Shown here one piece after another: positions 34,801 to 43,379 of a stretch of 64,000 bases of DNA. Numbering within the stretch: the stretch's first letter is position 1; each line of letters begins with the position of its first letter. The position numbers and the translations under genes are program-made. The notes under the pieces were generated by a model. That model searched no databases, was not told the origin of the DNA, and saw only the letters and a program-made list of their open reading frames with translations. The DNA is from Escallonia rubra (taxonomy: Eukaryota; Streptophyta; Magnoliopsida; Escalloniales; Escalloniaceae): NCBI GenBank assembly GCA_033065855.1, contig JAVXUO010001499.1, positions 1 through 64,000 of the forward strand, given 5' to 3'.

Positions 34801-37800
34801 ACAGCTAAAGACATTTGTCTAATTGGTAAGACCATAGCTTGCGCAAAGTTGGGGATTCAAGAAGGGTGTTATATATGAACTGGCAAAAAATACCTAATGC
34901 ACAAGGAGATATTGCTGTACATGTTACCCAAAGAACAAGAGCACGATTGATGAAGTGGGAAGTAGTTTTGGAGCATTGTGCAGCCATAGTATTCCTTCAA
35001 AGTTGAAGAGATAGCTTCTTACTGAAGGTATATATTCACTCAAACCCAATAGAAAAGACCAGATCTATTAAAGCTCGTCAATACCTTTTTAAAGCGTGGA
35101 CTGAACTATGCTAGATAAGCTAATAAGTACTCCAACCTTGCATAACCAATCAAACAAATTGTGTGGGCAAACGATAAACTTAACCAAAGGAATTGCTCAC
35201 GACTGGAAATAGCAAAGCTTGATAGTATTTTGGAACTAGTTTACGGTGCAAGAGTGGTCGCTCAGTTGAATTGAGAGGTTGGCATTCTGGTTTCTTTAAA
35301 AAGGGTACAGCTTTTCCCCAATATGCAACAGCCTGTAAAACATAGTATTGATCATGCTGTTCAGCATATCTAATTCGTCAAAACCCAAAATTGAGTCAAC
35401 TACTCTTAGATACGGTAGCCGAAAGTAGCACTTTGCCCACAAGTCTTGTTAGTTTGCAAAAAATGCTGGAGAAGAACATAATCAGCATACTGTATCATGA
35501 CATACAGGATATGCACCAAGTTCTTTTATCGTACATTTAGCTTCTTTCGTTTGGCAGGAAGTAGATAGTGCATAAGTTCTAAAGATGAGCATGACTAGTC
35601 GTTGGTAAGTAACGGTATGTGCCAAGCAGAAGGAGATGACCCACGCATAAATATTTTATAGTCCCTTTTAGTTGCCTGCAGTTACCAAGAGCGCATAAGA
35701 TAACATAGCCGGCCTGAAAGTCCAAGTACTATCAGATAATGAGCTTGGATTTCCAGAGATCCCAATACCACATATCATACGAGGGAATCTCAACTAAGAA
35801 AAAACTGCGTTCCAACTTCAAGAAATCACATATGTACACATATGCGCGTGAGTGACTGTGCATATGTCTACCATACATTATGCATGCATACAATATCTTT
35901 ATAGTACCTGTAGATAGAACACCACAAGAAGACTCCCGATAGTTGATGAAGGGTCATCTGTTGCAAAATCTAAAAGGCATTTGTGGAGATGTTTCTCCTC
36001 ATCAGAATTCCATGGCAATTCTATCATTCGATCCACCAAGTTCCTCCGAATACAAAGACAACAAAGTTCAGTCACCAGTGTCTCCACCCAATTAATCCAA
36101 GCCTGACCCTCTTCCTTTAATTCAACTGAAGAATCCCGAGATGACTCATGCCTTGGCTTATTTTCCTTAACTTTAGTGCAGAGCATCCTTTGATACATAA
36201 ATGCTTCTGTCAGCAGTCCACACTCCACTCTCACTCGAACAGCAGTGACAGCCTCACCAAGTGAAACCAGTTGAGCTCCACCATCACGCCCAGACCAACG
36301 TAGAACCATCAGTGCTGCATCAGGATTTTCCCTTTCTAAGAGAACCTGGGCGACCTTAGGATGCGTTGTTGGGCCTGAGATTTCTGGAAGAAGGCGACAG
36401 GCTTCCTAAGCAACAAAAAGCATACACATTTTAACGAGTATAGGTGACGAAACTGGGAAGAAGTTGAAACAGCTAACCACTTTCTAGAAATTCTGAGTAA
36501 GGAACAGATTATTTTTAACAGGTCAATGTGTCGGGAGAAATAATAATAACTTGTGGTGGAAACAATTTGAACAGTGACCTCTAGCTTATTGGTGGTAAAT
36601 GATTTGGCATAAATGAAGGATAAAATGGCTGCTAAGGGCAGCCAACATGTCTAACCCGGATTACTAAGCTATACTTTAAGTATGAAAACTAAAAAGTAGA
36701 GCTTTATTTCAGCCTCAAAAGAAACTAAATAAAGCTTTGAAAATATAATAAAGAAATTGAAACTAAGATGCTCCTCATCAGATTTAAATCATATAAAGCT
36801 AAAACTGATTATAACAGCCGAAAAAGAATTCAACTTAACTAGATTGTACATTCTGAAGACGTAGCTTCTTGAACGTGTCGTTTTAAACTTTTAGTATCGT
36901 TTTAAACTTTTAGTATCGTTTTAAACTTTTAGTAACATTTAGCAAGCATAGAACGACATAAGATTTTAGAAGCACCAAAAACGCAATGTTAAATTGACAT
37001 AGGTATTCTTGGATTTGATACTAAATGTAGCAGCCAAACAGAAAGTAAAATCGGCATTTAAAAACAATGAGAACCTAAAACAAAAAGAAAAATTACCTGC
37101 ATAGCTTCATCAGTGTTATTGTCCAAAAGGTAGAAGGTTAAAGATTCCAGTAACGAATGCCTGGTTATGCTAAAGGTAGCCGCAAAGTCATCAATAACAT
37201 ATCTCCATTTTTCATCAGGTACAGGCCAGTGCCGATCATACAGGTAATACAAGAACTGTATCCAAATTAAGGAGAAACAACAAATTAGAGTAACAAAAAG
37301 AAAATCAGCTGGGCAGATAGCCTGGTCTGTAATATCTCTTGGATATTGTACCAAGACCTGCAAGCAAATCCTGTCCTCATTGGGAAAAGGCTACACACGT
37401 AGCCCATGAAAGTCCCATTAAATGCAAAGATGGGTAATTACCAATTAGACATATATAAAAGAAAAAAACACTCTCTCAATAAGAATAGTGAACCATCAAA
37501 AAGATTTAGATGTCAATGGCAAGGATACGATTGCATGCTTTGCTACCAACATATCTGAACTTCCACGTAAAAAAAGTATGTCAATCGCATCTCGCAGATG
37601 TTCAAAGGGATAGCATCCTGCCATTCCCTCTATCTTAGACCGGAAAAATGAAGAGCCCCCTTCCTTCTGCAGTGATGCAATCTCTGATTCATCGCCCGTT
37701 TCACGAGTATATTCCTGTTCTACGTCAATATTTGACAACGCATCTTCAATAAAGAGCGTAGAACCACCTGGCCCAGTGGACTCCACGGGGTGATTTATTG

Positions 37801-40800
37801 AATCTGGCCATGAACGCTTAATTGCAGCTGATTTTCTTTCACGGACAATAGAACGCCATGATGTGAAATTTGAATGCCAAGACCTGATATTCTCAAGAAA
37901 CTGATGTTTTAGACACCAAAGTATCATCTCCATGTGCTGAAAACCACGAATACAAACAATAAAGATAAGGAACTTATTGACAATAATGTGCTTATCTAGT
38001 CATCAAAACCTAAAAGTTCAATCAAAACTTGGAAAGGTAACCAATATCCTGAAGCAACTTAAGACTAAACACGAGCCAAAGCAAATTACAGACAATAAAA
38101 GGTACCAACCTTGCACCATAATACAGAAAGGAGAAGTGGAACACTATCGTATGATACAGATACCTGAAGAACTGAATTACCGTAGACTTCAATCAAGTTA
38201 CTGTTTTTTTCACTTTCAAGCACACAATTTTAAACCAACATTTGTTATCTCATCGGGAATTTGGAGCATGCAGTAGTAGTTATTTAGAGGTATAATTACA
38301 AGTATAGAAGCGATCATCTGGAACAAAACTACCATAAAAACAGAAGACAGATCAGACTCAATACATCACATTTTTCTCAATGTAAAACACTTGATACTTG
38401 AAATTGAATAGCTTTACAAATTTAAACCTGCTTCGTCTTTGATACACTCTCCTGTAGGTGATGCAGATCTTTAAAGTGTGCTGAAAAAGAGCCCTTGAAT
38501 GAGGATTCCAACACTTCGAGGACATTAGAAATGCCAGCCAGCTTCACTGAGGACTTAAGAAGTGAACTCATCCTGTCTTTCATCTCCAGTACTGTTAGAC
38601 TATCTATCGTGAAAGTCAAAGATTACAAAACCACATACGAAAACATCAAAATAAAGAAAAACATTTCATAATGGTAAAGGATACAAATCCCTTGAAGCTC
38701 TGTTAGTATTATTTTGAATGTCCGCTTGCACCAATCTTTGACAACCACTTCGTCCAGCAAGAAAGCAACAACGGGATCACTAGACACAGCACTTTCATCC
38801 ATACACACATCTGTAATATCTGAAGCAGTCCATTAAGGAAATTAGGGCTTCCAATATGAAATAGTTTTGTACGAAGTACGGCTGAAGATTTTATGATTAA
38901 ACAACCAGTGTTGTACTTCTATGCTAAATTATAAGAATAGCTGGTGGTCTACTGTCACTGTTGTCCTGTTACTGTTCTCAATTACTGGCAAATATTCCTT
39001 CTATATACAAAATGTAGCGACCAAAAAACAAACGACAACTTTGTCCAAGTTTAGATTATAAGAATAACGGTATAATCACAACACCACAATAGGATACAAT
39101 GGCAAATCAGAGAAACCAAGTTGTTTTCCATGGCCACGTCAAATAGAGAATAGAGACGTTGGACATCAGCAGTTTGTTGTCTGTCTCCATCATCTTTCTC
39201 TTGAAATCTGTCATCATATCTCTTCGAAATAAGACCAGCCTCGATGCACTCGTAATAAAGGCGAAGCCGAAGTCTACTCCCATTCTTTGGTATAGGTACC
39301 CTACAGAATGGGCAAATATCACATCGTTGACTGCATTCTTCACACAAAGAAGCATGGCCACACGAGCTCAACACGCTTTGAACATTACGTCCGCAGCTTC
39401 TCAAGTCTCTTGTTGCCCGACAATGCTCAACTTTTGCTTCATTACATAACTCAATCAGATCAATTGATGCCAAGTGCTCCAATGCTCCCTGAAAATTACC
39501 CCAAAAGTAAAACATGACTTTTAGCAAAATGAGCAGCTGCTCCAAATTCTAAACAGCGAACATATAGTGTCTGTTGCTCGATATAAGATGACATATGAAC
39601 ATTTTATTGCTCGTGTAAGAACACTTCATTACTGAACATCAGATTTCAAGTATTTACGAATATTTTACGGGATTGATCGTGGTTACTCACACTCAAAAAA
39701 CAATTATCAATCCCCACAGATATTTGTATTCACCTTTCAGCTTAAAACTCTACGTAACAGCTTACCTGTAAAACAAGGACAACAAGAGGAAGCCTAATCA
39801 ACAATTAGGGATTTGACTTATGGTGCTATATGAAAACGGTCATCTTTGTATTAGAGCCCACTTTTGACTGCTTTGGATAAACAATTTTCCTTTCAACAGA
39901 CTACTTTGGCTAAACTTCAGTGCGCCATTCTGCTCTAGCTTATCCATGTTTTTGGAGGTCTTTCTAACAGCTGATTCATAATAAAAAAAAACCACATCAA
40001 GTTGAAGATGAGGCAGAGATAAGCTTATGATTCTATGAAGGATAAGGCTGAGAGGGCGATGGAACTTTGACCAACACTAGCAATTCCTTTGTCTGTTTCC
40101 ATGTCATTTGATGTTCTAATCCTACATAACAAAAAAATAGTGAGCTGCCCAGCAGCAAAGAACATTATTCTGGTCATTAATGAATCTCCTACAACTTCCC
40201 CAATTCACCATTTTTATTAGAAATCAAGCATAATGCTGGTATTGAAGAGAATCGAGATTGAATAGATGGTAGAGAGTAACATAAAACAACGAAATTTGAT
40301 ACCGGGCACACAAAACAAACACAGCCAGTACCTAAATAACATCTGCTGTAGAGAATCCACGGATAAACAAGCCAAAATATGCAGATTCCAAAACTAAGCC
40401 AAGAGATTGAACAAGTGATAACACGGCACCAACAAACGTTTCTTTGCTGATCAAAATTTAAAAGCAGCTCCCTCCTAAAACTGCCTCACCGTGTCAATGC
40501 CTTACCCTTTCGCATCGCCATCACTCAGGTCACATGACCTAACCTGGACTATGCAACCTTGTGTGTCATCAATACCTTTACACTAGTCCACCGTAACAAA
40601 TGTCAGTGATATCGTTAGAAAACACAAGGGTCAACAAACTACGTTCAACCAACAAACTTTTTTGTACCTATAGAGGTGGTTAGATAATGTTAGATCATTC
40701 TAGATCTCAGAAAGGGTAAAATTTAAATAAGATGTTATTACTTATCATTTGAGATAATATTGCTAGGCTGAGATAATTGGTCGATATGAATTATCCTCCC

Positions 40801-43379
40801 CACCTATATATAGGTGCTTGTACTCAACCAAGCATCCATGAAATTCTATTTGTGTGTTTCAAGTGGTATCAAGAGCCGCATTCTGGCGGACGGCCTCACG
40901 CCATTCGCCTGGCCAACATACTTCTTTTCCATCTCTTTTTTGCTTTTCTTGCTTATCTAGGTTTCTTTCTTATCTAGGTGCAATAAACTATGATTTGTAG
41001 GTTTTTGGTTTAAACAAGTATTCGACATCCCCCATTTGATCTCCAATAGGTTTTCAAGCCCCAAAAATATCTTTGCCAACTATGTTTCTCTACGTTTTCC
41101 TACTCCTCCACTAATGCATTTATAATCTTCCAGAGTTACGGATTTTCTCTCAAGCATATAATTCTAACTCATTCTCTTGTTCTATATCCTTCTTTCCTGA
41201 TGATTGAAAAGCTTTTACTACCTTTTTTTTATTGTTCTATTTTCTAATTTCTATTTCGTATACTCTATTGATTATCTCATTGTTCTCAAAGAGCCCTTCT
41301 CTTCCAGCTCACACTTCCTTGTGCTTACGCACTGCTTTTCTACATGTCGTCATTCTGCTTTCAGTCCTATAATGGATAACTGGGTTGCCTTCCATTGCCG
41401 TATGGATTATAGTGAAGAGATCTCTCATGCTGGAGTTGCATGCTCTATGGAGCAATTATGAAGATTCTTGCTGGACATTTGGGTCTCTTAATTTTTTCTT
41501 TTGGCAACCATATGAAATTTTTATTTAAAATAGGGGTAAATACACTTTGCCCCCCTGTACTTTAGGCCGGTTGTATTATGAATTTATGATCCTCTCTTCT
41601 TTAAAAAGTTGTACCAAACTTAACTCTACTCATCGAAATTGGATAAATTGGACGATTTCCATCCAAGTTAACACTTTTTTTGGGCAGGAATTGTTTCATA
41701 TTTTTTAAAGACCAAAATACCCTTTTCATTTAACACACATTGCATGCACACACACACCCCTTCCCAACCCCAACCCCGTAACCCCACACAGCCAACACAC
41801 GCTGAACACACAATTACAGTCACCTGCGTTGGCACACACACACACACACACTGAACGTGTATATTTCAGATCTGATGATTTTCTGTTTGTTTGGTGTGAA
41901 GATCATTAACGATCGGGAGACTGGGAGATCAATGGGGTTCAGATGGTGACTTTCAAAGACGAGTAGTCGATGAAGGACATGATCGAGGCGATGAACAGGC
42001 AAGATCTTGACGGACGCGACATCACCGTCAATGAGGCCCGGTCTCGCGGTGGCGGTGGAGGTGGTTTCTGCAGCGGTAGAAGTGGCGGTGGCCGTCGTGA
42101 AGGAGGTGGTGGGTATGGTCGTCGCGATGCTGGCTGTTGTGGGTATGGTGGGGAGGGTACGGAGGTAGCCGTAACCGTGGTGATGGTGCGTACGATAGAG
42201 GTGGCCATGACCTGGTGATAGTGTGTGTCTTCGTGTGTAAGGTGTGTGAGTTCATGTCTGTTCTGTGTGATTCTGTGTGTGTGAAGTCATACGTGTTCTG
42301 TGCGTGTGAGAGTTTTTTATAAATTCGTGTATGTGTGAGTTCGTGTGTGTTGTGTCAGATGGGGGAGGGGGGGCTGATCAAGAAAGGTTAGAGAATGGCA
42401 GGGGTTTGAAAATTTTGTGGATAAAAAGGGGTACTTTTGACAATTCAGAGGAATTTGTTTCACCAGTTAGAATTTACCCAACTTTGATGAGTATAGGTAA
42501 GTTTAGTGCAACTTTTTAAAGAAGAAGAGGCCATAATTCAACCGGCCTAAAGTACAGGGGGTAAAGTGTATTTACTCCTTTAAAATACCATGTGTTTGAG
42601 AGAGAGAAGAGGGGGGAGAGGGGGGGGGGGGGGGGTGTTAGATAGTGTTGGATCATTCTGGATATGGGATAAGGGTAAAATATAGATAAGATGTTATTAC
42701 TTATCATTTGTTAGGTTGAGATGATCGATAGATTTGAATTATCCTCCCAATCTATAAATAGGTGCTTGTATCAACCAACAAAGATGAATGCAATTGGTTT
42801 TCATACTTTACATATTTATAGAGGTGAATTACAAAATTCTCCTGGTGCAGGACCCCGTTGATGCCCACCAATAAGCTAGATCTAGATACATGCAAAAGTG
42901 GAAAAAAATAACCATACTCTACTATTAAACACTAATTAATCAGCTTTAAGAATTGGACTAGAGAAAATGAGATTTTCTAAAATAAAACTCTTGAACTACA
43001 AAAATACAAAATAACTTCTAGAACTAAATAACATGAATAGATCAATGAACTAGCCAAACTTCACTCTACAGCCCTTATTCCATCGCTTAGCTCCATTCAC
43101 AATTTCATAATTTCATCACAATATACTCCAAGGCTGGGTAATCTCTCTAATTAACAACACAACGGGCCACAATATCTAGTGAAACAGCTAGGGTTTAACA
43201 ATTATGTGCTCACAAACATTGAGCGTGTACAAAAATCAAACGGGCCAGGAGTATGGACCTACCTGGACTTTCCGGCAACCGTAATTAGGTTGAAGAGGCG
43301 GAGGAGCTGGCTTCAAGGCGGCGCCGCCGTTGCTGGCGCTCGAAGGTGCGGAGGTGCCATACGGTCTTCTTCCTTCCAT
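31820..43379 (-). CDS. HOS1: HOS1-type RING E3 ubiquitin ligase / nuclear pore-associated protein
   Basis: Ten exons: 43263-43379, 39098-39488, 38685-38819, 38428-38603, 37529-37936, 37097-37255, 35908-36405, 33829-33966, 32114-32844, 31820-31973. All have GT-AG introns with consistent phase, giving 968 residues (Arabidopsis HOS1 is about 915). The variant RING lies at about 54-101, with Cys54, Cys62, Cys82-x-His84, Cys88, Cys91, Cys95, Cys98 and Cys101. The long helical middle ([63 protein letters not shown]) is the ELYS-like domain. The Ser-rich C-terminus ends [13 protein letters not shown] and a basic RKSRFARR, as in HOS1. HOS1 ubiquitinates ICE1 and CONSTANS, regulates FLC chromatin and mRNA export, and sits at the nuclear pore. 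Exon 1 encodes only MEGRRPYGT...CRKVQ and is separated from the RING exon by a 3.8-kb intron filled with nested transposons. No coding lesion is seen. Confidence 0.95.
33361..33545 (+). repeat. Probable tRNA-derived SINE (Au-SINE-like) in HOS1 intron 8
   Basis: The string GGTGCAGAAATGGCAAGTCC followed by TCCATAGTGACTTGAAGGTCAC, then AACACGGAAACAGC and GGCTGCGTACAACCAACCCT, follows the order seen in Au-type plant SINEs: A-box-like, degenerate B-box, then the conserved GCTGCGTACA tail. The B-box is mutated, so this is probably an old copy. It lies on the strand opposite to the host gene. Target duplications were not found. Confidence 0.55.
36878..36934. repeat. Three tandem 19-bp repeats in HOS1 intron 6
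   Basis: The unit TCGTTTTAAACTTTTAGTA is present three times head to tail with no mismatch. Confidence 0.9.
40677..40861 (+). repeat. 5' LTR of the TRIM-like element
   Basis: 185 bp starting TGGTTAGATAATGTTAGATC and ending TTTCA. It shares with the 3' copy GATGTTATTACTTATCATTT, GAATTATCCTCCC and TAGGTGCTTGTA. It contains a TATATATA box near 40807. Confidence 0.8.
40864..40877 (+). other. tRNA-Met primer-binding site
   Basis: TGGTATCAAGAGCC begins two bases after the 5' LTR. It differs from the canonical TGGTATCAGAGC by one inserted A. Confidence 0.75.
41533..42578. mobile_element. Pack-MULE (Mutator-like element with a captured gene piece)
   Basis: The 1046-bp element begins GGGGTAAATACACTTTGCCC. 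Its right end, read in reverse complement, begins GGAGTAAATACACTTTACCC. The inverted repeats continue with few mismatches for roughly 120 bp (shared CTGTACTTTAGGCCGGTTG and TCTTCTTTAAAAAGTTG). The 9-bp target duplication TTTAAAATA is perfect (41524-41532 and 42579-42587). Long terminal repeats with a 9-bp duplication are diagnostic of Mutator-like elements. The interior has no transposase but carries a piece of a glycine-rich RNA-binding protein gene, so it is a Pack-MULE. It lies inside the TRIM-like element and is therefore the younger insertion. Confidence 0.9.
41902..42220 (+). pseudogene. Captured fragment of a glycine-rich RNA-binding protein gene (GRP7-type)
   Basis: Reading from 41902 gives [13 protein letters not shown], then after a frame change VTFKDE(stop)[33 protein letters not shown], then after another frame change [17 protein letters not shown]. 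This is the second half of the RRM (RNP-1 region onward) and the Gly-rich tail of GRP7-like proteins. The match starts exactly where GRP7-type genes have their intron (before IINDRE) and is preceded by a pyrimidine-rich stretch ending in AG. This shows that genomic DNA, not cDNA, was captured. It is broken by a frameshift at the second GF, a Lys-to-stop change after KDE, and a later frameshift. It is antisense to HOS1 transcription. Confidence 0.88.
42600..42635 (+). other. Polypurine tract of the TRIM-like element
   Basis: An uninterrupted run of A and G, ending in sixteen G, abuts the TG that starts the 3' LTR. This is the expected plus-strand priming site. Confidence 0.75.
42636..42803 (+). 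repeat. 3' LTR of the TRIM-like element
   Basis: 168 bp starting TGTTAGATAGTGTTGGATC and ending GGTTTTCA. Relative to the 5' copy it lacks about 14 bp after TTATCATTTG. Confidence 0.78.

Follow-up and report, generated by a model that had tools for sequence, protein, structure and literature searches.

The window, by which we mean the whole stretch of 64,000 nucleotides that was analysed (contig C1556:1-64000), carries on its minus strand a gene that we take to be HOS1, its name and domain order being adopted from Arabidopsis. The gene encodes a RING-like domain near the N-terminus (zf-C3HC4_3, E 2.7e-07) and, further on, an ELYS domain. A query with exons 1-2 gave two matches in the assembly used for all own-genome searches (566 Mb, 3,222 contigs); both were at the window locus, so this is the only HOS1 gene found there. 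Both exons are open, and the intron between them has normal borders. This intron contains a TRIM-like element and, inside it, a Mutator-like element (MULE) with a piece of a glycine-rich RNA-binding protein (GRP) gene. The features of the locus are:

35902..36405, minus strand: open stretch of HOS1 with the ELYS domain (PF13934, E 1.4e-22)
39099..39488, minus strand: HOS1 exon 2 with the RING-like domain; starts at 39488 after TTTTCAG, and only this right end is set by a splice border
39489..43262, minus strand: HOS1 intron 1 (3,774 bp, GT/AG splice borders), containing the TRIM-like element and the Pack-MULE
40677..40861, plus strand: 5′ LTR-like repeat of the TRIM-like element around the MULE, with 40679-40831 as the measured block and an approximate right end
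40864-40876, plus strand: primer-binding-like site TGGTATCAAGAGC, just after the 5′ LTR-like repeat
41524..41532: left copy of the target-site duplication, TTTAAAATA, directly abutting the left element end
41533..41649, plus strand: left terminal inverted repeat of the MULE, from arm comparison, exact ends and the genome-wide end pattern
41858..41901, plus strand: intron part of the captured GRP piece (the 3′ end of that intron), from alignment with the L009 locus; the left edge is a BLAST end and approximate
41902..42211, plus strand: captured GRP exon 2 (C-terminal half of the RRM and Gly-rich tail), from protein and DNA matches; antisense to HOS1
42471..42578, minus strand: right terminal inverted repeat of the MULE, from arm comparison and exact ends
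42579..42587: right copy of the target-site duplication, TTTAAAATA, directly abutting the right element end
42601..42635, plus strand: purine tract directly before the 3′ LTR-like repeat
42636..42793, plus strand: 3′ LTR-like repeat of the TRIM-like element around the MULE, with 42637-42778 as the measured block and an approximate right end
43263..43379, minus strand: coding part of HOS1 exon 1 (MEGRR...RKVQ), ending at 43263 before GTAGGT

The positions of exons 1 and 2 on the minus strand place the MULE in intron 1 and make the plus-strand GRP piece antisense to the gene. An earlier sequence-only reading of this DNA had put the element inside HOS1 with the GRP piece in antisense, and it was right on both counts.

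The Pack-MULE and its TRIM-like host element

The Mutator-like transposon spans 41533-42578 (1,046 bp) and terminates in GGGGTAAATACAC / GGAGTAAATACAC. Its inverted ends are single and ~110 bp long each, with arm complementarity of 97% over a 30-nt block and 82% over a 66-nt block. The two target-site duplications (TSDs) agree at 9/9 positions, which at fixed ends and with this base composition has a chance probability of ~6e-6. The longest open stretch within the element is 143 codons and a transposase is absent. With its 9-bp TSD and long terminal inverted repeats (TIRs), which also occur on elements coding for a MuDR-type transposase, it belongs to the MULEs, and as a transposase-free MULE carrying part of a host gene that the genome also has at another locus it is a Pack-MULE. 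Ends, TIRs, TSD and captured GRP fragment support this identity, which had already been proposed, as had the 9-bp duplication and the long inverted termini. Scans of the window for tRNAs and, at the gathering threshold, against Rfam gave no matches.

The element around the MULE is ~1.06 kb long when the MULE is subtracted. It may be a TRIM retrotransposon; TRIMs are non-coding elements flanked by a 5-bp duplication, with short LTRs, a primer-binding site (PBS) and a polypurine tract. The likeness, judged on these features, consists of short LTR-like repeats (40679-40831 and 42637-42778, 80% identical), a primer-binding-like site and a purine tract. The ends of the host element are approximate, and TATAGAGG, found near both ends at 40669 and 42817, is an imperfect and approximate outer duplication. 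Searching with the joined flanks of the MULE resulted in 43 genome matches, including three within the window. Seven of the 43 cross both flanks, covering 316-339 of 340 bases at 67-72% identity, and the three of these that were aligned contain a single TTTAAAATA or TTCAAAATA, i.e. an empty site. Related copies with an empty site argue that the TRIM-like element is the older of the two and was in the HOS1 intron when the MULE inserted into it.

The captured GRP piece and its donor-type gene

Alignment of the window piece to its own genome, as the sequence-only reading had suggested for finding the donor, succeeded and led to contig C1868. The closest intact gene (L009a, C1868:86.85-87.61 kb) is 84-85% identical to the captured piece. 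The interval 41880-42240 matches it at the DNA level with E 1.7e-103, and the window piece aligns to donor positions 1730-2100 at 84.4%. Exon 1 of this gene reads MAEVEYRCFVGGLAWATT...VIDSK, the intron follows VIDSK, and exon 2 ends with YSRD-stop. An N-terminal RRM (RRM_1, E 1.3e-23) split by an intron and followed by a Gly-rich tail identifies the gene as GRP7-type and supports the claimed GRP7-type source. The locus (L009, C1868:85500-93500) holds two tandem GRP7-type genes ~4.6 kb apart; the first alone closely resembles the captured piece.

The captured piece corresponds to the last ~44 nt of the intron, ending in AAG in the window copy versus TAG in the donor, and nearly all of exon 2. 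Because the match includes ~44 nt of donor intron, genomic DNA was captured and not an mRNA copy; retrocopy origin of the piece is ruled out by this intron end. The piece had earlier been bounded at 41902-42220 and said to start exactly at the intron position of the GRP family. Its GRP origin stands, and so does the start for the coding part (41902), but the capture itself begins ~44 nt upstream in the donor intron and the captured stretch is about 41858-42211. The translated fragment does match the GRP family (protein search, 41931-42062, E 6e-13); the fragment alone reached no Pfam family.

The GRP frame of the window copy is degraded, as had been noticed before: single nucleotides have been lost at two places, and there is an in-frame TAG. 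It differs from the donor at 13/8/15 of 102/104/104 sites in codon positions 1/2/3, and setting two functional paralogues against that donor gene gives 7/7/46 and 14/4/52. Taken as plain counts, the 36 mismatches of the window piece have no clear codon-position bias and lack the third-position excess that a gene under constraint would show. Coding function is ruled out by the two frameshifts, the stop and this missing excess.

Copies of the GRP piece and their spread

The own-genome DNA search with the GRP piece gave 64 matches, which is a lower bound. Around them we took 37 loci, 29 with the TIRs of the window MULE family and eight without. Two of the eight contain intact GRP genes, namely L009, which has two, and L027. 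The others (L025, L026, L028, L029, L030 and L043) are GRP fragments, some with 3′UTR sequence, and may be pseudogenes in their own right or have been picked up by other elements; L029 and L030 do not differ across the GRP block. As L021 holds two copies, there are 30 copies besides the window copy and 31 TIR-bearing copies in all, some of them perhaps allelic (possible pairs over ~4 kb are L015/L016, 95% identical, and L019/L022, 96%). Two subfamilies are distinguished below, A (L011-L018, L020, L021, L023, L024 and L045) and B (L031-L042 and L044).

The tree comprised 34 rows, 26 of them TIR-bearing, with the subfamily-B rows filling ~1/3 of the columns. Six loci were omitted as their best match block was too short (TIR-bearing L031, L035, L036, L041 and L044, plus L043). 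All 26 TIR-bearing rows form one clade (99/95), within which the window copy groups with L010 (99/95). L009a is the intact gene nearest to this clade. Five TIR-less GRP fragments fork between L009a and the TIR clade with weak support (85/73), which makes a lost relative conceivable as donor; the actual donor could therefore be such a relative of L009a.

The left capture edge lies at donor positions 1727-1744 in 18 of the 21 aligned TIR-bearing blocks, the other three being at 1751 (L023), 1895 (L040) and 1967 (L045). Right edges are more varied: donor position 2100 in the window copy, 2080 in L010, and 2111 in L019, L022 and the three subfamily-B loci tested. Eleven of the 14 subfamily-A blocks extend to 2302-2305 in the 3′UTR, a part that the window copy does not have, and the remaining three end at 2108 (L011), 2011 (L023) and 2012 (L024). 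A single capture requires a later deletion or gain on account of this 3′UTR part; the best fit would be one capture, after which one branch lost the 3′ part, the order of events being our reading of the edges. We give almost no credence to the GRP piece being a retrocopy or an independent capture outside a single transduplicating family: the five TIR-less fragments L025, L026, L028, L029 and L030 do branch separately in the same genome, but the window piece includes donor intron, has the left edge common to most copies and sits in the TIR-bearing clade (99/95).

Within the captured piece, most subfamily-B copies (L031-L042, L044) have a gap and tandem duplications in the Gly-rich part. Six subfamily-A copies (L011, L013, L015, L016, L018 and L020) have fewer donor mismatches at codon position 2 than at positions 1 and 3 (27/12/27 in L015), perhaps owing to glycine codon make-up.

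The MULE end pattern was found at 243 genome sites with ≤1 mismatch, and its reversed control at 0. Two MuDR-type relatives of 5,870 and 5,882 bp in the same genome, L068 and L069, resemble the window copy in end sequence, in their 9-bp TSDs (9/9 in both) and in terminal blocks that are 73-80% identical. Unlike the window element, they carry transposase domains, MULE (PF10551) and DBD_Tnp_Mut (PF03108). An open stretch of 790 codons in L068 contains MULE, DBD_Tnp_Mut and SWIM domains, and the transposase region of L069 is divided between two frames; the two proteins look very alike by eye. Judged by these domains, L068 and L069 are plausible helpers with a putative transposase.

Copies of subfamily B carry different TSDs, as expected of transposition after capture. 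Ten of the 13 loci have ten different words, seven matching at 9/9 and three at 8/9; each was scored as the best of 169 offset pairs, so that an 8/9 TSD is weak on its own. Of the rest, L035 has 4/9, and at L032 and L036 only one end was found. In subfamily A, eight of the nine loci with both ends found have variants of one flanking word, TGTAATATG/TATAATATG, which implies one insertion duplicated within a larger unit. This unit is ~10 kb long and continues in pieces (five loci examined at length), and it seems to be the unit, not the MULE, that multiplied. Pieces of zf-RVT-like LINEs adjoin 11 of the 13 subfamily-A loci, with reverse-transcriptase pieces farther away. Hitchhiking with a LINE was considered and rejected, given the ~10-kb unit and no common poly(A) end at the five loci; the unit is probably best left as a larger duplication. 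The search for an empty subfamily-A unit yielded no convincing match, three matches of 110-133 nt crossing the join in a GT-rich stretch.

Possible effects on GRP and HOS1, and known Pack-MULEs

HOS1 and GRP7 both act in cold response and flowering. The sequence-only reading had proposed that small RNAs or duplex RNA from the antisense piece could link the two genes, and if true this would wire two cold and flowering regulators together. The antisense orientation is real, and 11 of the 334 21-mers of the captured piece match the donor gene exactly (238 within 3 mismatches). Seen from the donor, the window copy holds 11 of 517 21-mers, from exon 2 and the 3′UTR. The other 29 TIR-bearing loci, searched whole with their flanks, hold 0 to 19. 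Seven subfamily-B loci exceed the window copy with 14-19 (L032, L033, L034, L037, L039, L040 and L041), and L019 ties with it at 11. One of the 11 in the window copy is shared with L035-L037. The other ten, which lie within 41908-42127, are absent from all of L010-L045 and would make a small-RNA test of a HOS1-to-GRP link clean.

The predicted fold of the HOS1-sense element RNA has -333 kcal/mol against -251 (sd 9.6) for 30 shuffles, with 182 pairs joining one flank to the other. Among the 354 bases of the GRP part, 150 pair inside their own block, eight outside it and 196 are unpaired; the GRP part is the loop of the predicted hairpin and not its stem. As GRP bases so rarely pair outside the block, processing of such a hairpin would be expected to give mainly small RNAs from the TIRs and the flanking microsatellites.

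That the HOS1-intron copy makes antisense GRP RNA or small RNAs which regulate the GRP donor gene, and so links HOS1 with GRP7-type activity, is very improbable in our judgement. Besides the orientation and the shared 21-mers, it has a precedent in maize, where captured sequences are described as siRNA reservoirs able to silence donor genes (available part of PMC13317346). However, the piece is intronic, its GRP frame is dead, it is one of 31 copies, seven loci share more 21-mers with the donor, and the GRP bases are mostly confined to the predicted loop. The claimed special link is unsupported rather than refuted: the regulatory idea is legitimate, but nothing in the sequence singles out the window copy. 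It would be an even longer shot for the whole family to be a dispersed small-RNA source tuning the GRP7-type donor, with the HOS1 copy putting part of it under the HOS1 promoter. Neither claim of regulation would carry weight unless it were borne out by RNA data.

An effect in cis is unlikely too, if less remote. The hairpin or promoters in the TIRs could bring silencing marks, slow splicing or antisense transcription to intron 1, for which the strength of the predicted fold and its inter-flank pairs speak, together with reported promoters in MULE TIRs (available part of PMC3310237). Against this, such folding is probably to be expected of any long-TIR element, and both HOS1 exons are open with normal intron borders.

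We consider it very probable that the window element belongs, as one decayed copy, to a Pack-MULE family (Mutator-like, multicopy and non-autonomous), with capture, spread, nested insertion and a functionless intronic copy. A MULE captured genomic DNA of a GRP7-type gene, namely the intron end and exon 2, presumably in a single event. Copies would then have been spread by a transposase from elements whose termini match, such as the two found. The window copy entered the TRIM-like element in HOS1 intron 1, making the 9-bp duplication, and its GRP frame decayed afterwards. It would now be spliced out with the intron, with ordinary transposon effects at most, e.g. intron lengthening or local silencing, and a neutral copy is the most likely state. 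The value of the case lies in a near-complete chain in one genome (donor-type gene, intron capture edge, likely helpers, 31 copies, nested insertion with empty sites), useful for the study of how Pack-MULEs capture and amplify gene pieces.

Our text search of a limited library found no paper that combines a Mutator-like transposable element with a captured glycine-rich RNA-binding protein; a paper in which both Pack-MULE and glycine-rich RNA-binding occur is by its title about other gene families. The rice Pack-MULEs, as far as the available text of PMC13317346 and PMC8903248 describes them, are likewise TIR-bearing MULEs with host gene fragments, whereas here there is one family from one donor gene. 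Closest is tomato PM-ZIBP, a Pack-MULE family with a fragment of a zinc-ion-binding-protein gene (available part of PMC3310237, also for what follows). In both families one captured fragment was amplified to many copies by MULE transposition, TSDs are 9 bp, elements measure ~0.9-1.4 kb and a tree includes the parental gene. PM-ZIBP has 13 copies with tandem TIRs and one with single TIRs, compared with the 31 copies found here and the single TIRs of the window copy. The window family differs in its GRP7-type source and in having one copy in HOS1. The window element is a well-documented case of a known class, the multicopy Pack-MULE, and is comparable with PM-ZIBP.
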